Assembly: GCA_019309115.1 (NCBI GenBank)
Contig: JAFDGW010000024.1
Location: 1 to 39,709 of the forward strand
Reading direction: 5' to 3'
DNA length: 39,709 nt
From: Deltaproteobacteria bacterium
GTDB lineage: Bacteria > Desulfobacterota > Syntrophobacteria > Syntrophobacterales > Thermodesulforhabdaceae
This document shows positions 3,162 to 17,182 of the stretch, piece by piece. The notes beneath the pieces were generated by a model. The model was given only the letters and a program-made list of their open reading frames with translations, ran no database searches and was not told where the DNA came from. Within the stretch, counting starts at the first letter, position 1. Each line of letters starts with the position of its first letter. The translations under genes were made by a program, and so were the position numbers.

Positions 3162-4964
3162 TTACCATTCAATAAAAGTCTTTAGCTCTTTTCTTCTGCT
3201 TGGATGTCTCAGCTTCCGGAGAGCTTTAGCTTCAATCTGCCTTATTCGCTCACGGGTCACATGAAAATCCTGCCCCACCTCTTCCAGCGTGTGATCCGCC
3301 TTCTCACCTATACCAAACCGCATTCTCAGTACCTTTTCTTCACGGGGTGTGAGCATGGCCAGAGCCCGTCTGGTACGTTCCACCAGGTTCAATCTTACGA
3401 CGGCGTCGGCTGGATTAACGGCCTTCTTGTCCTCTATGAAATCTCCAAGATGGCTGTCTTCCTCTTCTCCAATAGGAGTCTCCAAACTTATGGGTTCCTT
3501 GGCTATTCTCAGAATTTTTCGAACCTTATCCACCGGAAGTTCCATTCTTTCGGCTATCTCTTCCGGCATCGGTTCACGACCCAGCTCCTGTACAAGCTGT
3601 CTAGATGTACGGATAAGCTTGTTAATGGTTTCTATCATATGAACCGGGATCCTAATTGTTCGAGCTTGATCCGCTATAGCCCGCGTGATTGCTTGGCGGA
3701 TCCACCAGGTCGCATAGGTGCTGAACTTGTAGCCCCTTTGGTACTCAAATTTGTCCACGGCCTTCATAAGACCAATATTGCCTTCCTGGATCAGATCCAG
3801 AAACTGAAGTCCACGATTTGTGTATTTTTTCGCAATGCTTACAACGAGACGAAGGTTAGCTTCGATAAGTTCCGTTTTTGCCTGCTTGGCCTTTTGCAAA
3901 CCATCTTCCACACGCCGGAGCAACTGGCGAAGCGTTCTGGAATCAATCTTTGCTTCCATCTCAAGTTCGGTAATCTTATCCCTGGCTACGATTGCTTTCT
4001 CAACGAGGGTCCGAAACTCGCCTGGGTCTATGCGGAAGCTACGGGCAAGCTCGTCCACTCCACTTTCCCGTTCACCTGCTTCCTCGTATAGCTTATAAAT
4101 TTCCTGAAAGGGCTTTCCACACCTGAGTATGCATTCCTCAAGGTCTCGCTCGGCTCGCTCAATGTTTTCAAGATAGTAATTTAGCTTTTCGATAACCCTC
4201 TCTATCTGGTTCTTTCCCAGCTGCAAGCCTTTAAGCAAGTTAACAATTTGTTCTTTGTTAACATGAATCGATTCCCTCAGCCGATCCTTCTCTTCTGGAT
4301 CAATATTATCAGATAGAAGTCGGACCTGCATGCTTTTGTTTTCATTATCAAGCTTCTCAACCTGAGATAGGATAGTGATTACCCTTTCCCTGAGCTCTTC
4401 CTTCTCCTCGTCTGTTATGTCATCGTCCAATCCCCTCAGCACTTCGGTAACGTCTATAGCTTCATTTTCCAACTTTTCTCTGATTGAAAGAATTTCCCTG
4501 ATCCCAATGGACGACTCCATAATAGCATTGAAAACTTCTCGCTCACCGGCTTCTATTCGTTTGGCTATTTCCACCTCCTCCTCTCGGCTCAGCAACGCTA
4601 CTTGCCCCATCTCTCGCAGATACATCCTGACCGGGTCAGCCACTCGTCCAGTGCTATCTTCATAGTCATCCTCTTCGGTTTCTTCCGCTCCCTCTCCTTC
4701 ACCCTCATCCGAGGAAATACCAGTACGGGCCTTTGCAATTGCCGCTTCGTCTTCCGAATCAACAATCTCTATATCCATTTCATCAAAGATCATCATCATG
4801 TCATCGAGTTTTTCGGGAGATACAGCGTCTTCGGGTAGGGCTTCATTAAGTTCGTCATAGGTCAGATATCCTCGTTCTTTACCCTTGGAAATTAACTCCT
4901 TCAACTCTTCAATCTGAACTTGCTTTTTTTCATCACTACTCTGTTTTTTGGATTTCCTGCTCAT
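3162..4964 (-). CDS. rpoD: RNA polymerase primary sigma factor (sigma-70)
   Basis: A 600-residue housekeeping sigma factor, a typical length for proteobacterial RpoD. An N-terminal acidic region 1.1 with a Glu/Asp-rich stretch precedes region 1.2 ([20 protein letters not shown]). A non-conserved insert follows. Region 2 contains [20 protein letters not shown], then the [17 protein letters not shown] and [17 protein letters not shown] segments that bind core and the -10 element. Region 4.2 ([20 protein letters not shown]) is the -35-recognising helix-turn-helix close to the C terminus. It starts 4 bp after the dnaG stop, the classic dnaG-rpoD arrangement without rpsU in front, and is followed by a strong terminator. 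The long open frame on the other strand (3204-4091) is a shadow. Confidence 0.98.
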
Positions 4965-4968
4965 GGGT

Positions 4969-6762
4969 TCACTTCCCCCCTTTATTAAAATGACAATCGA
5001 GCGTCTGTAATTGCCTGAGCAAATCCCTTATAGCCTGGAAATCACCCCTTTGTTCAGCTTCAGAAAGCCTTTCTTTTAACTTCTCGCGCTGCACAGTGAT
5101 GGATTTTTTTAGGCATGCAGCAAGATAATCTTTGAAAAATGCAAAAGCCTGTTCCGTATTTCCATAAACACTATCCTCGACCATGTATCGAGACAACACT
5201 GCCTTAGCTACCTGGTCGTCAATCCTTTCATAAACTCGCTGTATATCAAACTCATCTTTCCTAAAAAGCCATTCTTCTCTGACGCCGCGAAGTATAGTTC
5301 CGTGAGCACTCGTAACCGTGTCAAGCAGTCTGTTGAAATCATGCTCGCTTATTTCCTTTACAAAATAAGGATACTTTATAAGTAGTTTCACAAGACCTTC
5401 TTCCGAAGTGCTGGTGACCACAAGGTCGCTTTCTGCTGGCAACGAAACTTTTGCTTTTACGCCCCTCCATTTGCGGAATTGTTTGCTAATTACATCAGGA
5501 GAGACATCAAGCCTTTCGGTGACCAAGCGCATATATTCACTCTGCAAAAGAGGATCTGCTATGTTCTGAAATAAGAGAAAAAGCTCATGAAGAATCTCCA
5601 GCTTTCCCGTGGCAGATCCGTCCCAGATCTTAACATGCTCGTCAATAACAAACCGTCCAAGATCTGTTCTTTTTGCCACAAGGAGTTCAAATTCATCCCA
5701 CCCCCGCTGGCTCAGAAAGTCATCGGGATCTAGCCCGTCGGGTAAAACGATACAGCTACACTTCAGCCTCTCCTGAATCAGAAAAGGGAATATACGCAGC
5801 ATTGCCCTTTTGCCAGCATCATCTCCATCGTAAACAAGAATTACCTCATCGGCGATTCTCCTGAGCAATCTTGCTTGCTGAGCCGTAAAAGCAGTACCCA
5901 GTGTGGCAACAACTCTGTATTCGCCAACCCTGTGAAATGCCAGAGCATCCATGTAGCCTTCCACAAGGAAAACATGTCTTTCCCCTTTTTTGGCCGAGCG
6001 GCAAGCACGCTCAGCTCTGTCGAGCTGATACAGAAGAGCTCTTTTGCGGTAAACCGGAGTTTCAGGGCTGTTTAGGTACTTTGGATCGGATCCATCGATG
6101 CTGCGTCCACCAAAGGCAACTACACGCCCTCTGGTATCCCGAATAGGGAATATTACCCGGTTTCTGAACCTATCGTACAAAGAACCTTTCGACGAAGTAA
6201 CAAAAAGTCCCGCTTCCTCTCCGAGCTTGGTATCTAACCCACCTTGCCTAAAATGTTGCACTAAGGCATCCCAATCGTCTGGAGCATAACCCAGCTCTTC
6301 ATCTCGAATCAGTTTTTCAGGGATTCCCCTCGATTTAAGATAATCCAGAGCTTTCTTACCGTTCGAATCGTATAAAAGGGTATGGTGGTAAAAATTCTTT
6401 GCCTTTTCCAATAAATCAAGGTACTCGTTTTTTTGGGAAGAGCTTCTGTTCGAGCTGGTGCTTCTTTCAGGAATACTGATACCGTAACGATCAGCCAAGT
6501 ATCTTATGGCTTCGGCAAAGGAAAGCCCTCTGTGCTTCATAATGAATTGAATTACATCTCCACCAGCGCCACACCCAAAACAGTAAAAAAACTGACGTTC
6601 TGGGTTAACAAAAAAGGAAGGGGTTTTTTCCGGGTGGAAAGGACAGAGGGCAGCATAGCGCTTGCCTGCACGTCGGAGTGGTATGGTTTCAGATATTACA
6701 TCCACAATATCTACCGCCTCTTTCACCCGTTCAGCGAGATCGCGACCTACACCGTCGGTCAA
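4969..6762 (-). CDS. dnaG: DNA primase DnaG
   Basis: A 597-residue primase that makes RNA primers for replication. The N-terminal CHC2 zinc-binding domain uses C40, H43, C61 and C64 ([11 protein letters not shown] then YCFGCG). The TOPRIM catalytic core includes the V-E-G-Y-M-D-A segment and Y-D-G-D-D-A-G, holding the metal-binding acids. The C-terminal part is the divergent helicase-binding domain. The start codon is TTG at 6760-6762, chosen because GGAGG lies 8 nt upstream and the product then begins with the typical N-terminal helix of DnaG. It is immediately followed by rpoD and probably co-transcribed with it. Confidence 0.97.
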
Positions 6763-6829
6763 AAGAATGCCCTCCGACGTCCCTTAGATTTGGAAACGTT
6801 TATTCATAACCAAGCGAAAAAGAAAAGTC

Positions 6830-6835
6830 TATAAT
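6830..6835 (+). promoter_or_regulatory. Candidate -10 box for plus-strand RNA
   Basis: A perfect TATAAT hexamer on the plus strand. A start site near 6842 would place the structured region at 6852-6955 at the very 5' end of the transcript. The -35 region at 17 bp spacing (TAACCA) is weak, so this rests mainly on the -10 match in A+T-rich DNA. Confidence 0.4.
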
Positions 6836-6841
6836 GAGAAA

Positions 6842-6972
6842 AGAATTATTCGAAAAATCTGTCAGGTGCGTGGAAGTACTCCACTTTGCTCTGTAAGCGA
6901 GCTATTAAGGCGCAGTTGTACTGTGCTTTACAAGTCAGACATTTGCAGATTTTTCAAACGCCCCTTTTTCTC
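6842..6972 (+). ncRNA. Candidate structured RNA, family not recognised
   Basis: A perfect 10-bp closing stem pairs 6852-6861 (GAAAAATCTG) with 6946-6955 (CAGATTTTTC). Inside are three consecutive hairpins, each with a 5-nt loop: GTGGA/TCCAC at 6870-6884; T-T-T-G-C-T/A-G-C-G-A-G at 6885-6901; and a 10-bp stem TAAGGCGCAG/CTGTGCTTTA at 6906-6930. Several pairs are G-T on the plus strand; they would be A-C mismatches on the minus strand, so the plus strand is the more likely transcript. A T-rich end (CCCCTTTTTCTC, 6961-6972) follows and a TATAAT box precedes it. It could instead be a small palindromic mobile element (MITE). Boundaries are approximate. Confidence 0.4.
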
Positions 6973-6979
6973 AAAGTCG

Positions 6980-7008
6980 TTGACTTTAAGGGTGTGACGG
7001 GGTAATAG
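6980..7008 (+). promoter_or_regulatory. Promoter of tRNA-Pro
   Basis: TTGACT at 6980-6985 and TAATAG at 7003-7008 are separated by exactly 17 bp, a good sigma-70 promoter. The predicted start (about 7015) is 20 bp before the mature tRNA 5' end at 7035. Confidence 0.7.
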
Positions 7009-7034
7009 AGGCTCAGTAATGCGGAATAATGAGT

Positions 7035-7112
7035 CGGGGCGTAGCGCAGTCTGGTGAGCGCACTAGCATGGGGAGCTAGGGGTCGGCGGTTCAAATCCGC
7101 CCGCCCCGACCA
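7035..7112 (+). tRNA. tRNA-Pro (GGG)
   Basis: A complete cloverleaf can be drawn: acceptor CGGGGCG/CGCCCCG, D arm closed by GCGC/GCGC, anticodon stem CTAGC/GCTAG with loop ATGGGGA (anticodon GGG at 7070-7072), T stem GGCGG/CCGCC with loop TTCAAAT, discriminator A and an encoded CCA. It has its own promoter. Its 3' part from the anticodon stem on (7064-7112) is repeated at 7801-7851, which marks the tRNA as an integration site. Confidence 0.95.
7064..7112 (+). repeat. Direct repeat copy 1 (att-like, in tRNA-Pro)
   Basis: The 49 bases from the anticodon stem to the CCA end are repeated at 7801-7851. The two copies differ only by two extra bases (GT) in the distal copy. This is the usual footprint of a tyrosine-recombinase element that integrated inside a tRNA gene and restored the tRNA with its own copy of the 3' part. 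Confidence 0.85.
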
Positions 7113-7800
7113 GAAAAATCAGCAACTTACAGAGGCAGAAAAATCTTAACAGCGGCTTTGGGGGCTGTTTTGGGGACTACTCACTCAAGGGTTCGCGTAG
7201 GGGAAAAACGGTATTGCTCACAGATAAGTTCATGCGAGGAAGCAATGTTTTATCTTCACGAATGTGGACTTAAGCGGCTAGTCAGAGACAAAGGTAGAAT
7301 TACTTGCGAGAAACTGTGTCGTTGACGAAATAGCATAAGCTTACACAAGCAGAAATGAGGAGGCAGAAAATGTACTTTGTAGGCAACATAGTAAAGGAAA
7401 GCATACTAAGAGCATTACTAATGATCTTACTTTGCCTACTGATGACGTGCTACTGTAAGATTGCCTCTGCTGATTCGGTCCAGCTTGAATCTATTGGCGT
7501 TAAGATAATTAGCAAAAGCAAGGATTACATAGAATATAGTTTTAAGGTTAAAGTTCGAAGCCTCGGCAAAGAAGGAAAGGTTTGTGTGGATGTTAAGGGG
7601 CTGGATATAAATGACTACGAAATAGAAAGCACCCTTGTCTGCGGCGTTGTCCAAGATGACGAAACTGCAATCCTTACTGATACGGACTTCGTCAAAATAG
7701 ATAAGGCTAAAAAGATAAGGACATGGATAGCGGAAATGCCTGATTACTCTACACGTACCGTTAGCACACGCTCACCGTCCATATAAAGACATAGACGGAA
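7113..7800 (+). mobile_element. Shell of an integrated element (about 0.7 kb)
   Basis: The DNA between the two tRNA-Pro repeats is 688 bp and carries one small gene (7370-7786). The remaining 257 bp upstream of that gene (7113-7369) contain no integrase, excisionase or other frame I can recognise. Either a larger element has collapsed by deletion, or this is a very small passenger moved by a recombinase supplied from elsewhere. The outer limits are defined only by the repeats. Confidence 0.65.
7370..7786 (+). CDS. Small exported protein of unknown function
   Basis: A 138-residue protein starting at an ATG preceded by GAGGAGG at about 6 nt; an upstream in-frame ATG at 7355 lacks such a site. 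An N-terminal hydrophobic segment (residues about 13-29) ending near C-K-I-A-S-A-D looks like a Sec signal peptide. The mature part has alternating beta-like segments: a body with a V-K-V-R-S-L-G-K-E-G-K-V stretch, and a Thr/Ser-rich tail. This fits a small extracytoplasmic beta-sandwich of the FxLYD-like kind, but I cannot assign a family. It is the only gene between the tRNA-Pro repeats and appears more A+T-rich than its neighbours, in keeping with acquisition by transfer. Confidence 0.65.
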   Translation: MYFVGNIVKESILRALLMILLCLLMTCYCKIASADSVQLESIGVKIISKSKDYIEYSFKVKVRSLGKEGKVCVDVKGLDINDYEIESTLVCGVVQDDETAILTDTDFVKIDKAKKIRTWIAEMPDYSTRTVSTRSPSI

Positions 7801-7851
7801 TAGCATGGGGAGCGTTAGGGGTCGGCGGTTCAAATCCGCCCGCCCCGACCA
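7801..7851 (+). repeat. Direct repeat copy 2: displaced 3' end of tRNA-Pro
   Basis: A 51-base copy of the tRNA-Pro 3' part, with GT inserted where the 3' strand of the anticodon stem begins and the rest (including T arm, acceptor strand and CCA) identical. It has no 5' half, so it is not a functional tRNA. A likely reading is that it is the original host 3' end, displaced by the insertion and since released from selection. Confidence 0.85.
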
Positions 7852-7894
7852 TTATCCTTTCAAAGGTAAGGGGCCAAAAAAGAAGGAGCTGTTC

Positions 7895-9028
7895 ATGAAA
7901 AGGGCAAGTCTTTTAGGTTTGTGTTTTTTTATGATTGCTTCTTTACTATTTGGGTGCGGTCATACCAGTGTTGAAACGGTTTCACCTGTTGTGCCGGAAT
8001 CTCAAGTGGGTGGCTTTCAGAAAGTGGTGATACTTCCTTTTGCTGATTACACTACATTTGGTACGCCTTATGACTATTGGAGGCGGAACATCCTGGTAAT
8101 GGAGGCCATTCAGGACGAGCTTAAAAAATATGGTTATCTACCGGCTATGCAGGAAGATGTGATAGCATACCTGCTGGAGAAAGGGATTATAAGGGAAAAG
8201 CTTGCGGAACAGAATGAGGGCCCGGAGGTTCAGGTTCTGCGGGAAGAACTGGCAGGGGAATGGACAAACATGATGAAGCAGGAAATAGCCCGCGCTCTTT
8301 ATATGAACCTCAGCCGAAATCAGCCCGAAGAAAGGTATTGGAACGAACAACGCCTTATAGCTTTGGATCACAAGACTATTGAGGAAATAGGCGATTACTT
8401 TAAGGCTAAATATATCGTTCGTGGCAGGATCGTGGAACTCAGCGCTGGACAGGATGATAGCTTTAATCCGGTACAGACAGGATTGCTGCCTTTCTTCTTC
8501 AAAGTCGGTTCGAGAACCATCTTCGGTATAGCTCAGTCGGATACTTATGAAATGATCGATAAGATGGCCATAGGTGGTCTTATGGGTGCTGTTTTGGGCC
8601 CAGATGATTTTCCTATTGAGGATGATCAAAAAATTGAAGGACATCCAAGATTTGGGGGCGGTATAGTTGAATCTAACGATTGGAGTGGTTTTAATACGGC
8701 CATTTGGGGAGTTGCGGGTGTGGCGGCAGCTCATCTGGCTCATAAAGGCGGGCGCGTTGACAAAGCCGTCGTCCAGCTGAGAATTGTAATCCAGGATGCT
8801 GACACTGGTGAAATAGTTTGGGCGAACAGAGCGGAAGTTAAAACAACACCTCGATCTGTTTATGGTGAGCACGACCCGGAAGTTCTTTTGGCCAGAGCTA
8901 TACAGGACGCTGTAGCCACTCTCATGCAAAACTTTGTCCTTTCGCAGGTAGAAGGAAAATATGTCACCTACGATCGCTACGGTACTATTTCGGTCGTGCC
9001 AAAATCTCAGGTTATAAAGAAGCGATAA
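7895..9028 (+). CDS. Predicted lipoprotein with TolB-N/CsgG-like fold
   Basis: A 377-residue protein. The start at 7895 is chosen because AAGGAG lies just upstream and it gives a clean lipoprotein signal: basic start, hydrophobic core, and the lipobox L-L-F-G-C with the lipidated cysteine at residue 21. A longer frame from 7805 would run through the tRNA fragment and is rejected. The segment V-V-I-L-P-F-A-D near the mature N terminus, A-K-Y-I-V-R-G-R-I-V in the middle, and a late beta strand with D-A-D-T-G-E-I-V-W-A are typical of CsgG/LpoB/GNA1162-like outer-membrane lipoproteins. Function is unknown. The gene begins only 43 bp after the displaced tRNA end. Confidence 0.75.
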   Translation: MKRASLLGLCFFMIASLLFGCGHTSVETVSPVVPESQVGGFQKVVILPFADYTTFGTPYDYWRRNILVMEAIQDELKKYGYLPAMQEDVIAYLLEKGIIREKLAEQNEGPEVQVLREELAGEWTNMMKQEIARALYMNLSRNQPEERYWNEQRLIALDHKTIEEIGDYFKAKYIVRGRIVELSAGQDDSFNPVQTGLLPFFFKVGSRTIFGIAQSDTYEMIDKMAIGGLMGAVLGPDDFPIEDDQKIEGHPRFGGGIVESNDWSGFNTAIWGVAGVAAAHLAHKGGRVDKAVVQLRIVIQDADTGEIVWANRAEVKTTPRSVYGEHDPEVLLARAIQDAVATLMQNFVLSQVEGKYVTYDRYGTISVVPKSQVIKKR

Positions 9029-9074
9029 CGACCCCATCCACAGCAGCGACACAAGGAGCGGCTTGTAAAAGAGA

Positions 9075-9794
9075 TTATATGGCCTCTGCCTTTTTAGTGG
9101 AGAAAAGTTGTTCTACTTCTCGAAGATCCGAAACAGCATAATACGGCGGTGGAAGATCACCTCTCAGTATTAATGCTAGCGCCTTCCTTTCTCGGTCAGG
9201 CCTTATGATGTACCAAACCGTTTTCATTCCAACCTGCATAGCCGGGGCGACGTCCAATTCATAAGTGTCACCTATCATCCAACAAAGCTCGGGAGGCCGC
9301 TTTGCCAGCGATAGTGCGAGCTCAAAAATTCCTGGATTCGGTTTCTTTACACCCATTTCGTAGCTTAAGATTTTGTACTTGAAATAAGGGATGAAATCGC
9401 GAAATCGCCTTGAAAATCCTTCAAAAAAAGGATGCCAGATGTTGGAAATACAACCTAGTTCAAATCCCTTCTCGTGAAGTGATTGTAAGACTTCAAAGGC
9501 ACCAGGAAGGGGTTCCACGCAGCAAAGCTGCTCCTGCCAGACGTCGCTGACTGCCTTTCGTAAATCTTCTTGAGATACTCGGCTTCTGCTAGTGGATATG
9601 CAGTTCCACAGCACCTCAGTAAGCTGGCTTGGTGTTCTAGCATTGGTGGTCATTACAATTTTGCCCACCTTTTTGATTTCTCTTTCTGTAAGCCCCAACC
9701 TGTGGCCAATGAGTCTTCTCGGCGATGCTTCAGAACCCGTGACCAGAGTGTGCCCTATATCGAAGAAAACGATTGGTTTGTCGGTACGATCCAT
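9075..9794 (-). CDS. HAD-superfamily hydrolase
   Basis: A 239-residue haloacid-dehalogenase-like protein. Motif I is F-F-D-I-G-H-T near residues 10-16, keeping the nucleophile aspartate but with Gly where most phosphatases have the second, acid/base aspartate. Motif II is the serine in G-C-I-S-N-I-W, motif III the lysine in G-V-K-K-P-N-P-G, and motif IV is M-I-G-D-T-Y-E-L-D. An alpha-helical cap lies between motifs I and II. Such proteins usually dephosphorylate small metabolites. It starts 12 bp after the thymidylate-synthase-like gene, so a role in nucleotide or pterin metabolism is possible but not shown. It is the last gene of the long minus-strand group and meets the lipoprotein gene tail to tail. 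Confidence 0.8.
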   Translation of the reverse strand: MDRTDKPIVFFDIGHTLVTGSEASPRRLIGHRLGLTEREIKKVGKIVMTTNARTPSQLTEVLWNCISTSRSRVSQEDLRKAVSDVWQEQLCCVEPLPGAFEVLQSLHEKGFELGCISNIWHPFFEGFSRRFRDFIPYFKYKILSYEMGVKKPNPGIFELALSLAKRPPELCWMIGDTYELDVAPAMQVGMKTVWYIIRPDRERKALALILRGDLPPPYYAVSDLREVEQLFSTKKAEAI

Positions 9795-9806
9795 TTTTCG
9801 ACTTAA

Positions 9807-11276
9807 TTAGTCTTGAACAAAGGGGGTTCCATCTTTAAGGCATCGCTCCGCCCGCTCAAGCTGACGGCCAAGATAAATAGCGTGGCTGATTTCTGAAACT
9901 ACTCCGTCTCTGGCAATTTCATGTTGCAGTCGAGCAGCTTTCTTCCCCCTGTACGTCTTCAACGTTACGTCGTCCGCACGATATTCCACAATTATTTCGC
10001 CATTGTCTATGGAAATGCGAAAATATCCCATTGGATCCAGACGGTAGCGAAACTCCTTTTCTCCAGCAATAATTGCCGCCCGATCTATCTCCATTTCGTC
10101 AATACTTATGGAATGACTTATAATGGTAATTGCTCCTCCGGGAAGGTCCGTGTTGCTTGCCACCAGATCTCTCAGTGCCATGAGCCCATAAAAATTTACC
10201 AGCCATGCGTCCAACGCATTATGGGTGCGGAAGGTAGCCGTCAATGTTAGTTTTTCCTCAAATTTTCTGAAAAAGATGGAAACCAGGCAAGGACGTCCGC
10301 TTGCAGTCTCTGAAAGATCCCTTCTTGGATCCCAGAGCACTACGTAGCTCTTTCTGTCTTCAGAGTCTTTGCGAAGTCGCTTTGTTACCTTCTCGATTTG
10401 ATCAAAACCGAAGTGAGCCCTTATGCGATTACCATAAGTGTAGGTGGTATCTTCAGGCAGTAGCTCTGATAGGAATTCCCGTTGATATTTTTTCATGGTC
10501 TCAACGGAAAAGCCGTACTTTGAGAGTTCCTCCGGATCAACAGGAGCAGGGTCTTCCACCACTACTTTCACATTTTGGAGCTCTCTTCTGGGCCCTTTTT
10601 TCAGCCGGACCGGACGACCAAAGTGGTACAGGGTATGTATGAGATCTTTCCATGCTGTCAATGGATCTTTTGCCCAAATAGAGTGCATACGCGGATTGCT
10701 GGGATACCAGGTAACCCTCATGGAAGGAAGGGGCACCCGAAGACGTGGAGGTAGGGACGAATTTTCGGGTTTGTACTCCTCTAGAAGCTTTCTGACAAAG
10801 TAAATTGCTTTATCGTCCTGAGCTTCCCCGGCAAAGACCACTTTGAGTGGTTTTCTAAACATCTCTGGTCTGACCAGGTCGTCCAAAATCCGTGATGTTC
10901 CAATAATCCGTGCAACTCCAGGTTTTGACCCGTCAGGCAAAGGTTCATACTGCACCGACGAATTCTGAACCGGCTCTATGCCTTTCTCAAAAAAAGCAAT
11001 CAATTGCTCTGCAGAACCGGACCGGTTTCTTCCACACAGTATCAAAAAGTCTATTTGGGGATTATACAGCAGATTTCTCAGGAGCTCCCGAAGTCCGTTT
11101 CCGTAAAGGGTGCCAACTACAGCAACCGGGGTTCTTTCTGGATTGAGATCAATTCCCGCTCCCTTCAGCCTTTTTATTACATATTCAACGCCGGACCACA
11201 GGGTTATAATTCCCACGGTTCCGTTGGAATTCAACACCTTAAGCTGGTCACGACAGTAAAGGGGTATGAATTCCAT
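9807..11276 (-). CDS. MtrA/DUF4346-like + thymidylate-synthase-like fusion
   Basis: A 489-residue two-domain protein. Residues about 1-180 resemble the MtrA (methyl-tetrahydromethanopterin:CoM methyltransferase subunit A)/DUF4346 pterin-associated domain, with V-A-V-V-G-T-L then NPQIDFLILCGRNRSG (72-87). Residues about 200-485 resemble ThyA: T-Y-G-N-R-I-R (280-286, the dUMP-binding arginine region), W-D-P-R-R-D (315-320), G-R-P-C-L with the expected catalytic Cys330, and the R350-centred F-R-T-H-N-A segment where ThyA has Q-R-S-x-D. The enzyme probably methylates dUMP (or hydroxymethylates a pyrimidine nucleotide) using a folate or related pterin. Its start codon overlaps the stop of the dCMP deaminase gene (TGATG); that enzyme makes dUMP, which supports the assignment. 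Confidence 0.72.
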   Translation of the reverse strand: MEFIPLYCRDQLKVLNSNGTVGIITLWSGVEYVIKRLKGAGIDLNPERTPVAVVGTLYGNGLRELLRNLLYNPQIDFLILCGRNRSGSAEQLIAFFEKGIEPVQNSSVQYEPLPDGSKPGVARIIGTSRILDDLVRPEMFRKPLKVVFAGEAQDDKAIYFVRKLLEEYKPENSSLPPRLRVPLPSMRVTWYPSNPRMHSIWAKDPLTAWKDLIHTLYHFGRPVRLKKGPRRELQNVKVVVEDPAPVDPEELSKYGFSVETMKKYQREFLSELLPEDTTYTYGNRIRAHFGFDQIEKVTKRLRKDSEDRKSYVVLWDPRRDLSETASGRPCLVSIFFRKFEEKLTLTATFRTHNALDAWLVNFYGLMALRDLVASNTDLPGGAITIISHSISIDEMEIDRAAIIAGEKEFRYRLDPMGYFRISIDNGEIIVEYRADDVTLKTYRGKKAARLQHEIARDGVVSEISHAIYLGRQLERAERCLKDGTPFVQD

Positions 11277-11848
11277 CAGGATGTTGCCCCCAGCCTTCTG
11301 CGAGACGTCAGCTGCCTGATGTCGGATAACATGTATTCAAAAGCTTCATCGCTTATCCTGAGCTGCTCGAAAACTTCTATGCCCGCCTCTTCCACAGCTT
11401 TTTGCCAAAATGCATCCCGTTCCGGGCTGGAGGATTCATAGGGTTGCTCATAATAGATTGCCTTGACTCCGGCCATGGCAAGAAGTTTTAGGCACACATA
11501 ACATGGGGCAAGGGTAGTATAGAGTGTGCTGTCCTGAATAGATATCCCATAGCGCGCGGCCTGAGCTATCGCGTTTGCTTCTGCGTGTGAGGCTCTGCAA
11601 AAATTATATTTATCAATGTCCGGTATTTTCAGAGCTCTGCGGAAGCAGTAAGGTGATCCGTCTTCCATAGGAGGACCGTCAATGCAATGCGGCGCACCAG
11701 GCATAGCGCCGTTGTAACCAGTTGCCAGGATGTGGTTGTCTTTGACAATTACGGCTCCAACCCTTCTAGAATTACACGTAGAGCGCGTGCTCACTATCTT
11801 CGCAATCAGCATGAAATATTCGTGCCAGCTAGGCCGTTTTGCGCTCAT
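11276..11848 (-). CDS. dCMP deaminase
   Basis: A 190-residue zinc-dependent cytidine/deoxycytidylate deaminase. The zinc site is H88-A-E90 together with P115-C116-Y-V-C119; the glutamate is the proton shuttle. The N-terminal W-H-E-Y-F-M and the substrate segment G-Y-N-G-A-M-P-G-A-P-H-C are typical of dCMP deaminases (ComEB type) rather than cytidine deaminases. It converts dCMP to dUMP, the substrate for thymidylate synthase, and its stop codon shares a base with the start of the thymidylate-synthase-like gene. Its own start lies 20 bp inside the end of the HoxU-like gene. Confidence 0.92.
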   Translation of the reverse strand: MSAKRPSWHEYFMLIAKIVSTRSTCNSRRVGAVIVKDNHILATGYNGAMPGAPHCIDGPPMEDGSPYCFRRALKIPDIDKYNFCRASHAEANAIAQAARYGISIQDSTLYTTLAPCYVCLKLLAMAGVKAIYYEQPYESSSPERDAFWQKAVEEAGIEVFEQLRISDEAFEYMLSDIRQLTSRRRLGATS

Positions 11849-12488
11849 CGGCTTTCAATACCAGAGCCGCCGTCGGACAGATGTTTATGCAGGCTAGACA
11901 ACTTCTGCACTTAGCCTCCACATTTTCACCGGGATCTGAAAAAAATGCAACCATAGTATCGAATCCGCGTCTAGCAAAAGTCAGTAGCGGTTTTCCTTCG
12001 TTTTGAGTTCTGCATACATGTACACATCTTCCGCACAAAACGCAACGGTAGGGAAAATAAAACATAAAACCAAAATCTACCACTTCCGGGATGTCTCGTT
12101 CTAGTTTCTCCAAAGGCTTCGGGCTAAGGCCCACCCCAAGGTGTTTCGCAATTTTCATAAGGGTACAGGGCTTTTCAGTAGGGCAGGTTTTCGCATGACA
12201 GGGATGGCCCGACATGATCAACTTGAAAGCTGATTTCTGAAGGCGCTTAACCTCGGGGGTATCAGTCCGAATAACCATTCCGTCTTCAACGTTTACTGTG
12301 CAAGAAGGAACCGGCGCAGGCCGCCCTTCAATTTCCACAAAACACAACCTGCATGAAGCATGAGGATGTTCTCTGTCTTTCAAGAAGCACAGGTTCGGGA
12401 TAAATATCCCATTACTCAGACAGGCTTCAAGAACAGTTTGACCTTCCTCAACCTCGATGCTCTTACCGTTCACTATTATTTGCACCAT
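11829..12488 (-). CDS. HoxU/NuoG-N-like iron-sulfur subunit of a diaphorase
   Basis: A 219-residue iron-sulfur protein. A [2Fe-2S] ferredoxin domain uses C34, C46, C49 and C63. A His-Cys [4Fe-4S] site follows (H95-P-C97, C102, C108), then two [4Fe-4S] sites: C149, C152, C155, C159 and C194, C197, C200, C204. This equals the N-terminal part of NuoG, [FeFe] hydrogenase or HoxU, without any catalytic domain. It would pass electrons between the NuoF-like flavoprotein and an unknown catalytic partner. I start it at the ATG at 12488, with GGAGG 11 nt upstream; a GTG at 12506 lies too close to that site. It follows the NuoF-like gene by 45 bp. Confidence 0.85.
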   Translation of the reverse strand: MVQIIVNGKSIEVEEGQTVLEACLSNGIFIPNLCFLKDREHPHASCRLCFVEIEGRPAPVPSCTVNVEDGMVIRTDTPEVKRLQKSAFKLIMSGHPCHAKTCPTEKPCTLMKIAKHLGVGLSPKPLEKLERDIPEVVDFGFMFYFPYRCVLCGRCVHVCRTQNEGKPLLTFARRGFDTMVAFFSDPGENVEAKCRSCLACINICPTAALVLKADERKTA

Positions 12489-12533
12489 AGCGATCGCTTC
12501 CTCCACGAATACGTAACTCTAGGTGCGAATGCT

Positions 12534-14495
12534 CTAAGAATCAGCACCATCCATGGCTCGTTTTGGCTGCTGATCCGGGGGCCTTTCGATTATCGGTGCC
12601 AGCTCTGGCGGCGAAACCTTAACCACCGCATCATACTCTGGCGGACAGGATGTCATACATTCGCCGCATTTTACACATAGGCTCTGGTCTATCGCTTTCT
12701 TGCGTCCTTTTGTGGTAAAAATAGCTTCCACCGGGCAGGAACCAACACAGGCTTCACAGCCTCTGGCACACTTTTCAAGATCAATATAGTAAGCGATTAA
12801 ATCACGGCATTTTAGTGCCGGGCATCGCTTTTCCTTAACGTGTGCTTCGTACTCGTCCATGAAGTAGCGGAGCGAAGTAAGAACGGGATTCGGTGCTGTT
12901 TTGCCTAAGCCGCAAAGCGAACCTTTTTTTATATCTTCAGCAAGTTGCCGCAAGGTTTCCAGATCTTCTTCCCTTCCCTCACCTTTTGTTATTCTATTGA
13001 GAATATTCAGCAGGTGCTTTGTTCCAATACGACAGAAGGTACATTTGCCGCAGGATTCCTTTTGAGTAAATTCGAGGAAGTATCTGGCTACATCAACCAT
13101 GCAACTATCTTCATCCATTATTACCATGCCGCCGGAACCCATCATTGCGCCGGCCTGAGTTAGTGAGTCAAAATCTATCGGCGTATCGAGGAATTGCTCA
13201 GGTAGGCAACCTCCCGATGGGCCTCCAATCTGGACAGCTTTGAACTTCTTCTTGCCAGGGATGCCTCCACATATATCAAATATCAGAGTACGTAGGGTGG
13301 TTCCCATTGCGATTTCCACAAGGCCAGGATGCTTAACGTTTCCGACGACAGAAAATATGGCCGTGCCGGGACTTCCCTCAGTGCCTATCGATCGAAACCA
13401 GTCGGCCCCTCTACGAATTATGGGAGGCACGGAAGAAAGTGTTTTTACGTTGTTTACCACCGTGGGCTTACCCCACAACCCCTTTTCCACCGGGTAGGGT
13501 GGCCGGTGCTGGGGCATACCTCGTCGTCCTTCAACAGACTGAATCAGAGCGGTTTCTTCACCACATACAAAAGCACCCGATCCCTGAAACACTCTCACAC
13601 TGAGTGAAAAATCCGAACCCAAAATATTTTCTCCTAAAAGCCCATACTCCCTTGCCTCTTCAATGGCGTGCTGAATGGTTCTCACCGCCAGAGGATATTC
13701 CGCTCTCACATAAACCAGCGCTTCATCCGCTCCGACGGCATATGCACATATTATGAGCCCTTCCAAGAGTTGATGAGGATTACTTTCAATTATCGTTCGG
13801 TCCATGTATGCGCCGGGATCGCCTTCGTCAGCGTTGCATATTACAACCTTTCCGTCTGCACTTTTTTCAAAGGCAAACTTCCACTTCTTACCTGTGGGGA
13901 AACCAGCACCACCACGCCCCCTGAGACCCGACTTTGTCACGATTTCAATGATTTCCTCACGTTCCATTTGCAGGGCAGAAGCAAGAGCACTGTAGCCATC
14001 TTTGTCGAGGTAATGATCAATGTTCCACGGGTCAATCAGACCACATAGCTCCATGACAACGCGCTGTTCCATGCTGAAACGAGGAAAAGTGGTGACAGGG
14101 GGAATGAGATCATTCTCTTCCATTGCACCCAGGACGTACTCAAAAGCAGGATCTCCATCTTCAAGATAGGAACGGCAAATCAACTTGGCCTTGTTGGCGT
14201 CCACATTGTAGTAACAAATAGGTGGAAAACCGGTAGTAGGATGGTCGATTATCAGGAGAGGTTCTGCATAACAGTGTCCGAGACATCCAACGCTTATAAT
14301 CCGAGCATTAAGCCCCTGAGCCTCCAATACATCTTCAATGGCTTTCTTCGTTTCTTCGGCTCCTGCCGCCCTTGCGCATGTTGACATGGTGATGCGAATG
14401 GAAGGTATCCCCTCTGCTCGTTCAGCTTCAAGACGCTTGCGAGCAGCACCCCTTAGCTTCTCATAAGTCTCGATAATTTTTGTGTCTTTAGCCAT
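12534..14495 (-). CDS. NuoF/HndC-like NAD(P)H-binding flavoprotein
   Basis: A 653-residue diaphorase subunit. An N-terminal thioredoxin-like [2Fe-2S] domain keeps C40, C71 and C75, with only one cysteine visible at the first position pair. The FMN/NADH-binding core begins with GLRGRGGAGFPTG (190-202) and includes V-C-G-E-E-T-A-L. A [4Fe-4S] site S-C-G-K-C-T-F-C-R with a later S-L-C-G-L follows. The C terminus adds a two-cluster ferredoxin domain (C-x3-C-x2-C-x3-C-P and C-x2-C-x2-C-x3-C-P). This layout is that of HndC/HydB/HoxF-type subunits of NAD(P)-linked hydrogenases and formate dehydrogenases, including flavin-based electron-bifurcating ones. The start codon overlaps the NuoE-like stop (TGATG). 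Confidence 0.88.
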   Translation of the reverse strand: MAKDTKIIETYEKLRGAARKRLEAERAEGIPSIRITMSTCARAAGAEETKKAIEDVLEAQGLNARIISVGCLGHCYAEPLLIIDHPTTGFPPICYYNVDANKAKLICRSYLEDGDPAFEYVLGAMEENDLIPPVTTFPRFSMEQRVVMELCGLIDPWNIDHYLDKDGYSALASALQMEREEIIEIVTKSGLRGRGGAGFPTGKKWKFAFEKSADGKVVICNADEGDPGAYMDRTIIESNPHQLLEGLIICAYAVGADEALVYVRAEYPLAVRTIQHAIEEAREYGLLGENILGSDFSLSVRVFQGSGAFVCGEETALIQSVEGRRGMPQHRPPYPVEKGLWGKPTVVNNVKTLSSVPPIIRRGADWFRSIGTEGSPGTAIFSVVGNVKHPGLVEIAMGTTLRTLIFDICGGIPGKKKFKAVQIGGPSGGCLPEQFLDTPIDFDSLTQAGAMMGSGGMVIMDEDSCMVDVARYFLEFTQKESCGKCTFCRIGTKHLLNILNRITKGEGREEDLETLRQLAEDIKKGSLCGLGKTAPNPVLTSLRYFMDEYEAHVKEKRCPALKCRDLIAYYIDLEKCARGCEACVGSCPVEAIFTTKGRKKAIDQSLCVKCGECMTSCPPEYDAVVKVSPPELAPIIERPPDQQPKRAMDGADS

Positions 14496-15040
14496 CAGCC
14501 CGCCGATTCCTTAGCTTGCTTTTCCCGTTTTTCCTTTTCACGCTGGACTTCAAACTGCACAAAAAGCCCTTCTACCTTGCTGGGCTGCATGTACCCTATT
14601 ACATGATCGTCAACGACCGCAACGGGCGCCAGCGCACAACAACCCACACAGGCAACCCGTTCCAGACTGTATTCCCGGTCCGGGGTTGTTTCACCCGGCT
14701 TTATGTTTAGCTTCCTTTCAAAGTTTTCAAGTATTATATCGCCTCCAGCCACATGACACGCCGTGCCCATACAAACTTTAATCTCATGCTTTCCCGGAGG
14801 ATGAAACCGAAACTGGTTGTAAAAGGTAGCAACCCCGTAAACTTCACTGGACGAAAGATCCAGATATTTGGCGACTTCCCTTATCGCACCGGGAGATAAA
14901 AACTTAAATCGCCCCTGAACCGCCTGGAGAATAGGAATAAGGCTACCCCGTTCACGGGGGAATCTGGAAAATATTTCTGGGAGCTCGGCCTTTATCGCCT
15001 TCTCTTCCTCTTCGGTTACCAGATGTTCTGGCGCTGTCAT
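14495..15040 (-). CDS. NuoE/HndA-like [2Fe-2S] subunit
   Basis: A 181-residue thioredoxin-like [2Fe-2S] protein with ligands C90, C95, C131 and C135 (V-C-M-G-T-A-C then C-V-G-C-C). An N-terminal helical domain containing G-S-L-I-P-I-L-Q-A-V-Q is typical of NuoE. It pairs with the NuoF-like subunit in NADH-oxidising modules. The start at 15040 has AGGA 8 nt upstream; an ATG 9 bp earlier is also possible, whereas the longer open frame to 15244 would overlap rpe heavily and adds unrelated sequence. The C terminus carries a Lys/Glu-rich tail. About 73 bp separate it from rpe, the largest gap in this gene train. Confidence 0.88.
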   Translation of the reverse strand: MTAPEHLVTEEEEKAIKAELPEIFSRFPRERGSLIPILQAVQGRFKFLSPGAIREVAKYLDLSSSEVYGVATFYNQFRFHPPGKHEIKVCMGTACHVAGGDIILENFERKLNIKPGETTPDREYSLERVACVGCCALAPVAVVDDHVIGYMQPSKVEGLFVQFEVQREKEKREKQAKESAG

Positions 15041-15113
15041 TTTTACCATCCTGCACTTTCTGTTTACACTAGTAATAGATAACCAATGTACATGTATTTT
15101 TACAATAAATAGT

Positions 15114-15824
15114 TCATCTATGCAAGGAACTTTTCCAATCTTGCACCTTCCCAAGTGCTCCTTCAGCATATTTTCTGATGGCTTCGATGTTCTCCCTGTA
15201 GGATTTTCCCTCGAATATCGCCGTGCCGGCAATGTACACGTCAACGCCGTACTTAGCGAGTTCCACCACCGTGTCTTTGTTTACCCCTCCATCAACTGCG
15301 ATAAGAACATGGAGGTTTCTTTCTGCTATCATTTGGCGGAGGTGCTTAATTTTTGAAAGCACTGATGGGATGAAACTTTGGCCACCAAAGCCCGGATTTA
15401 CGGACATCACAAGGATAAGGTCCAACATATCCAGCACAGGTTCCGCACAAATTGCAGGCGTTCCGGGATTGAGGGCAAGGCCTGCCTTTATGCCCTTGTC
15501 CTTAATTTGTTGTAATACTCTGTGGATGTGAGTGCAGGCTTCCACATGAACTACTAGCCAGTCCGCCCCGGCATTTGCAAAGGCTTCGATGTAATTTTCC
15601 GGGTTTTCAATCATAAGATGCACATCAAAGGGAAGTTTTGAGTACTTTCTTATTGCAGCGACTACATCTGGCCCGATAGTCAGGTTAGGGACAAAATGAC
15701 CATCCATAATGTCAACATGAATCCAGTCTGCTCCGGCTTCTTCTACTGCTTTAACCTCTTCACCCAGTCTGGAAAAATCCGCAGCCAATATGGACGGTGC
15801 AATTATGACCTTCCTTTCCTCCAT
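15114..15824 (-). CDS. rpe: Ribulose-phosphate 3-epimerase
   Basis: A 236-residue TIM-barrel enzyme interconverting ribulose 5-phosphate and xylulose 5-phosphate. Diagnostic segments are A-P-S-I-L-A-A-D-F near the start, the metal-binding [12 protein letters not shown], the second metal-ligand strand F-D-V-H-L-M-I, the loop [12 protein letters not shown], and the phosphate-binding end V-D-G-G-V and A-G-T-A-I-F. I prefer the ATG at 15824, which has AAGGA 8 nt upstream; an ATG at 15845 overlaps the rsmB stop as ATGA and would add seven residues. Confidence 0.95.
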
Positions 15825-15841: not shown

Positions 15842-17182
15842 TCATTTAGGTTTTGCCCATGTCACCCCAAAAAAGCCGTCGATACCATGCCTGTGAGGCC
15901 ACGTCCTCAGGTTGTACTTTTCAAGCAGTTTTTCCGAATGGGGAATCACGTCTGACGGATTGATTCGGGGCCATTTCCACTTTTCTTCAAACCTCTGTGC
16001 TATATCTTCGTTTTCTTCGCTGAAAATGGTGCATGTTGCGTAGGTTAATGTTCCTCCCGGTTTGACAAAATTAGCTGCGTGATCCAAAAGATCGTACTGT
16101 TGCTTTCCCGCTCGCCAAGGATCTCTCGGATGAGTTTTCCACTTGATGTCCGGATTGCGCCTTATAGTGCCCCAACCCGTACATGGAGCGTCAAGGAGAA
16201 CCCTGTCAAAAAGTCCCACTTCTTCGGGATTAAGGGATCTCACATCCTCTGTTCTTGTCGAAATTATTTCAATACCCAGTCGTTTCACATTTTCCATCAA
16301 GGCCTCCAGTTTCCAAGAAGCGGAATCAACGGCTAGTATCTGGCCCTTGTTTTTCATTATTTCGGCCAGTTGAGTTGCTTTTATGCCGTAACCGGTGCAC
16401 AGGTCGAGCAGGCGTTCTCCCGGCAAGGGGTTTACCATGAGGGGTATCAACTGAGAAGCTTCGTCCTGTATCTGAATCCAGCCTTGTATAAACGGTTCAG
16501 TTTGCCCTATATCTTCGCTAGGATTTCTAATTGTCATCGCCGTTGATAGGTATCTTCCCTGTTCAACGATAGCACCTCGCTTCCGAAACCATTGGGCTAC
16601 CATTTCGGGTTGTGCTCTAAGCAAATTAACCCTTATGGTCAGACCGGGCACTTCGTTGTTAGCTTCGCAAATCTTCTGCACTTCTTCCATGGAAAAATGG
16701 TGCATCATCTTTTCGACGAACCATCTGGGGTGGGATGTCAAAACGGCGAGGTAGGTTAGAGGATCGGATTTCCGATCAGGAAATGGCCAGTCAGGATGTC
16801 GTCGGGCCGCATTGCGGAGTATTCCGTTCACGAAGGACACGATATGTTTGGGTTGAGTAGCACGGGCTATTTTTACTGTTTCGTTAACAGCAGCATGAGC
16901 CGGGATTTTAGTGAGAAACGTTATCTGATACAAACCCAGCCGGAGAAGTACCATCACATGTGGTGCAATTTTCCTGAGGGGTGTTTTACTCAGCGTTTCA
17001 ATGTACCAATCCAGCCTCCCCTGCCATCTTAGTACGCCGTACACAAGTTCGGTAGCGAGCGCTTTTTCTCGCTTGTCCATGGTATTGAAGCGCCGAAACA
17101 TGCTCCGAAGCAGTGAATCCGGATGAATTTGCCTTTCCTGTATGAGTAGCAAAGCATGATAAGCCAGGGTTCGAGCGTTCAT
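15842..17182 (-). CDS. rsmB: 16S rRNA m5C967 methyltransferase
   Basis: A 446-residue protein with an N-terminal NusB-like RNA-binding domain (about residues 1-140, with [13 protein letters not shown]) followed by a SAM-dependent methyltransferase domain. Motif I is [14 protein letters not shown], motif IV holds D-A-P-C-T-G-W-G-T and motif [10 protein letters not shown], the two cysteines used by RNA m5C methyltransferases. The fmt-rsmB neighbourhood is widely conserved in bacteria. It overlaps the DUF116 gene by 4 bp, which suggests coupled translation. Confidence 0.95.

Follow-up and report, generated by a model that had tools for sequence, protein, structure and literature searches.

Synthesis of dTMP is essential, and to our knowledge only two routes to it, those of ThyA and ThyX, are established. 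The known proteins that resemble the one described here are canonical ThyA (PF00303), the methanogen-type thymidylate synthases (TIGR03283), MtrA, which is the corrinoid subunit of the H4MPT:coenzyme M methyltransferase, and two-domain proteins in which MtrA is joined to DUF4346. The window analyzed (the whole stretch of 39,709 nucleotides) encodes a protein, hereafter the fusion, in which a thymidylate synthase (TS) domain is flanked by an MtrA-like domain and DUF4346. A literature search made largely outside the subscription journals found no paper describing this architecture. A lineage that includes cultured bacteria appears to rely on this third architecture, with no recognizable folate pocket or DHFR. 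The fusion links DNA precursor synthesis with domains of methyl-transfer proteins, and offers a way into the chemistry of methanogen-type TS, which has been little tested, and into the role of DUF4346. The features of the locus are given below in window coordinates.

9075 to 9794, minus strand: HAD-superfamily hydrolase (PF00702), third gene of a conserved triad
9807 to 11276, minus strand: MtrA-like/TS/DUF4346 fusion of 489 aa, proposed dTMP synthase
9813 to 10043, minus strand: DUF4346 ("PterinBD") domain, residues 412-488 (PF14251, 71.5 bits, cut-off 29.6)
10062 to 10685, minus strand: TS domain, residues 198-405 (PF00303, TIGR03283; TS-fold chains at Z 17-22)
10287 to 10289, minus strand: codon of Cys330, the equivalent of E. 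coli ThyA Cys146 (HMMER and MAFFT alignments)
10752 to 11276, minus strand: domain with the MtrA fold, residues 1-175, lacking the cobalt-ligating His (model pLDDT 93; 5laa at Z 13.7; loop CGRNRSGS)
11276 to 11848, minus strand: dCMP deaminase of 190 aa, predicted to supply dUMP (PF00383, E 7e-24; PHROG dCMP deaminase, E 3e-52)

The original prediction of two ORFs overlapping by one base was borne out on the minus strand, where the stop codon TGA of the deaminase and the start codon ATG of the fusion form a TGATG junction (context TCCTGATGGAA). The deaminase matched dCMP-deaminase families and carries the zinc-site motifs HAE and PCxxC. The HAD hydrolase gene starts 12 bases downstream of the fusion, and the order deaminase, fusion, hydrolase is kept in seven related loci (L002-L008), where the deaminases are 75-80% identical. 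On the other side, a ferredoxin-domain (NuoG-like) gene (window 11829-12506) overlaps the start of the deaminase gene by 20 bases, and thus the dTMP genes may share one operon with the NADH-dehydrogenase-like genes at window 12534-15244. At another locus (L009, 2952-4262), a radical SAM/DUF3641 gene and a CMD-family gene lie upstream of the fusion, and the same genes occupy this place in L010, L011, L013, L016, and L017.

The fusion scored 40.2 bits with PF00303 (cut-off 24.3), which places it in the TS superfamily. Among the NCBIfam TS models, the methanogen type TIGR03283 scored best, residues 206-396 aligning over nearly the whole model with 121.2 bits, a score under the equivalog cut-off of 174.55. 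In a model of the full-length protein, the TS domain aligned with TS-fold enzymes along some 200 residues, at Z 17-22; the pTM of this model was 0.54, and for that reason the relative placement of the domains was left uninterpreted. In ThyA, Asn177 is the dUMP-selective residue. The ThyA residue roles used for the comparison are in part those described in PMC6754364. By alignment, the fusion has counterparts of ThyA Tyr94, Cys146, Arg166, Ser167 (as Thr), and Asn177, including the predicted catalytic Cys330. The nucleotide-binding arginines, which had been described as kept, were found in part: R308 and R350 are present, but the Arg126/127 pair of ThyA reads R308/K309, the second position being His or Arg in part of the family. 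The pair that binds ribose, His207/Tyr209, is replaced by Ser391/Asp393. In 39 of 39 distinct fusions, both the R[TS]HN motif and the counterpart of N177, an Asn, were constant, and the catalytic PC motif was read in all of them except L071, where the pattern caught an upstream PC. The position of D169 is Asn in every fusion but Asp in the TS sequences used for comparison (canonical, archaeal-virus, and short), while Glu58 and the Trp80/Trp83 region have no equivalent.

With its Cys/Asn/Arg core, the fusion is predicted to be a TS that binds dUMP. Given the lack of Glu58 and Trp80/Trp83 counterparts and the Asn in place of D169, it is doubtful that folate is bound as in ThyA, and these losses, together with the replacement of His207/Tyr209, weaken the predicted binding of dUMP and methylene-tetrahydrofolate. 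The fusion thus shares with canonical ThyA the fold, the catalytic Cys, and the Tyr94, Arg166, and Asn177 equivalents, but differs from it in lacking E58, W80, D169, H207, Y209, and the C-terminal closing segment, as well as a DHFR partner in its own genome. It differs from the methanogen type by its score below the equivalog cut-off, the change of D169 to Asn, the loss of H207/Y209, and the domains fused at both sides.

The original prediction had named a canonical ThyA or ThyX elsewhere in the genome as evidence against a dTMP-forming role, and neither was found by profile search. In this genome (96.4% complete), which belongs to a relative of sulfate reducers, the single PF00303 match is the fusion itself, and a dedicated profile of the short TS paralogs matched the fusion alone, revealing no hidden short TS. 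Thymidine salvage was also considered; the sole weak thymidine-kinase match proved to be a PilT-like ATPase. Of 98 relatives whose genomes have a completeness of 85% or more, the fusion is present in 17 and ThyX, an unrelated protein with apparently the same role, in 51, and the two never occur together (hypergeometric P = 6e-7 if genomes are independent and 8e-5 counting genera, with shared ancestry uncorrected). Within family f3, the fusion occurs in genus g6 and ThyX in the remaining genera. Nine genomes have the fusion without ThyX, a short TS, or canonical ThyA. Eight others carry a short TS paralog alongside the fusion, which counts against a sole-TS role there. PF00303 alone overlooked one fusion (G096).

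Phages often bring nucleotide-synthesis genes in groups, and a whole fusion (45% identity) was found on an IMG/VR viral contig (L032) that also encodes a terminase, a head-decoration protein, and a sliding clamp. The second gene after the fusion on this contig encodes an adenosylcobalamin-dependent ribonucleotide reductase and is followed by a cobalamin adenosyltransferase gene. The segment (6001-11405) comprises the fused TS, a small protein, the reductase, the adenosyltransferase, which is of the PduO type, and a DNA methylase-like gene. The phage apparently supplies the B12 cofactor for its own reductase. Because the fusion is the sole TS candidate in its genome, excludes ThyX across the 98 relatives, and has a phage copy near a ribonucleotide reductase gene, it very probably makes dTMP from dUMP. 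The predicted pair leading from dCMP through dUMP to dTMP is therefore strongly supported by genome context, which includes the absence of ThyX, another TS, and thymidine kinase.

The 39 distinct members of the family come from Desulfobacterota and the one phage contig. All keep the dUMP-type Asn and, wherever its motif was read, the catalytic Cys. We identified 17 full-length homologs (48-69% identity) in Syntrophobacterales, Desulfacinum, Desulfosoma, Desulfobaccales, and other Deltaproteobacteria, and a divergent branch in family f83 (35-37% identity) that retains the architecture. Searching 395 genomes of the phylum with a profile of the N-terminal domain gave matches in 30, comprising 29 fusion-sized frames and one lone MtrA-like protein. 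The cultured Desulfacinum infernum and D. hydrothermale carry the fusion, and both also have the short TS paralog. A second family, of short methanogen-like TS proteins (about 230-260 aa; L020 391-1197, L021 2384-3163, and profile matches), occurs widely across the phylum, in most cases where neither DHFR nor ThyX is present, and apparently serves as the TS in many of these genomes.

The N-terminal domain scored only 12.3 bits with the MtrA family PF04208 (cut-off 25). Its structure was modeled with confidence from 19 family members (residues 1-178; pLDDT 93, pTM 0.87), and the top structural matches were all MtrA (Z 12.7-13.7), the next unrelated chain being at 7.5. The match to 5laa (Z 13.7) covered 139 residues at 2.4 A. 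According to this model, residues 1-175 adopt the Rossmann-like fold of MtrA. MtrA has His84, Glu54, and a GAIPF meander, but the fusion lacks all three: the loop that bears His84 in MtrA has the sequence CGRNRSGS or one like it, in which no histidine is conserved, and the Glu54 partner of the cobalt site is also gone. A His-on corrinoid is therefore not expected in these proteins, though binding in another mode is conceivable. Standalone MtrA-like proteins of 109 aa, also without the histidine, were seen in L068 and L069 with no TS gene nearby; L069 (G184:C22, around 16597-16758) is on a contig that may not belong with the rest of that genome.

The MtrA/DUF4346-like and ThyA-like fusion of the original prediction was right in both homologies, but DUF4346 is not one unit with the MtrA-like part. 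It is a separate C-terminal domain, and hence the TS domain sits between the two. A role of DUF4346 as a putative pterin binder is suggested by its Pfam family name alone. A Paraburkholderia megaplasmid (L035) encodes a protein in which MtrA (143 bits) and DUF4346 (77.5 bits) are linked without an intervening TS, and similar proteins are encoded on Planococcus plasmids. These two-domain proteins share both flanking domains and their order with the fusion; unlike the fusion, they have no TS domain, and the Paraburkholderia protein retains the cobalt-site motifs TENLG and GH, with both His and Glu. This protein (3173-4354) also has a Cys-rich N-terminal extension; its MtrA is of the corrinoid type, and its host is an aerobic bacterium. 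As the Paraburkholderia protein lacks a TS, the TS domain of the fusion looks inserted between two domains that were already together. On this view, an MtrA-DUF4346 corrinoid protein would have received a methanogen-type TS domain between its two domains. Its MtrA part would then have lost the cobalt ligand and taken on a structural, docking, or pterin-handling function.

We consider it probable that the gene pair is the de novo route of the cell from dCMP to dTMP, with methylene-tetrahydrofolate as the donor and help from the flanking domains. This explanation rests on the architecture, its conservation, the sole TS candidate, and the ThyX exclusion reported above. The deaminase would make dUMP from dCMP, the TS domain would bind dUMP, Cys330 would add to C6, and C5 would be methylated. 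The one-carbon unit would most likely be methylene-tetrahydrofolate, presented with the help of DUF4346 and the MtrA-like domain, a help that we infer from the lack of the usual folate pocket in the TS domain. The original prediction had also proposed an unusual pterin or C1 pool, and such a special donor is partly supported. The H4MPT marker Mch and the His of a cobalt-ligating carrier were not found in the fusion-bearing genomes and in the loop of the fusion, respectively, but the canonical folate-pocket residues and DHFR are indeed missing, and a non-canonical donor or reductant could therefore be in use.

One such alternative is that dUMP is methylated by a methyl-level donor, either a methyl-corrinoid or methyl-tetrahydrofolate, the Cys-activated C5 taking a methyl cation equivalent with no need for a hydride or DHFR. 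On both sides of the TS lie domains of a corrinoid methyl carrier, the residues for folate and hydride transfer (E58, W80, D169, Y209) are lost, and a lone DUF4346 gene adjoins metE on a Nostoc plasmid. DHFR was not detected in the family of this genome or in any of the nine fusion-only genomes. However, it was also missing in 89 of the 98 genomes, ThyX users included, so its absence is weak evidence on the chemistry and is not specific to the fusion. The loss of the MtrA cobalt ligand His84 and its Glu54 partner also argues against a corrinoid donor, and we regard methyl-level donation as rather unlikely. In its fullest form, it would be a third dTMP route, in which a ThyA-type Cys enzyme receives a methyl-level group from methyl-tetrahydrofolate or a corrinoid through its own MtrA-like and DUF4346 domains, with neither folate hydride, flavin, nor DHFR; we find this version improbable.

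Little credence can likewise be given to ordinary ThyA chemistry, in which methylene-tetrahydrofolate provides both carbon and hydride, the extra domains are structural, and an unrecognized reductase acts on dihydrofolate. The TS fold and the Cys/Asn/Arg core fit this reading. An unidentified DHFR has been inferred for folate-making bacteria without folA (PMC1971073), and six f2 genomes encode a weak DHFR homolog. The residues that hold and activate folate in ThyA are nevertheless absent from the fusion. In the one genome with canonical ThyA, a DHFR gene adjoins that of ThyA.

A modified pyrimidine nucleotide, such as hydroxymethyl- or hydroxy-dUMP/dCMP, had also been suggested as the product in place of dTMP. 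Of the solved structures, a phage dCMP hydroxylase (9iqu, Z 21.7) lies nearest to the TS domain, with the CMP hydroxymethylase MilA (Z 18.6) next and ThyA after it. Yet the fusion is the only TS candidate in nine near-complete genomes with no other dTMP route found, it excludes ThyX, and its dUMP-type Asn is invariant, all of which make this product very unlikely. Use of methylene-H4MPT, as proposed for TS of methanogens, can be practically dismissed despite the best score with TIGR03283, since Mch, a marker of H4MPT C1 metabolism, was absent in 18 of 18 fusion-bearing genomes. Of note, a protein of Gordonia phage Phendrix (L036, 2477-3361) that is annotated as a thymidylate synthase carries Asp in place of N177. 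Cytidylate-modifying TS-fold enzymes likewise have Asp there, and the annotation may be wrong.
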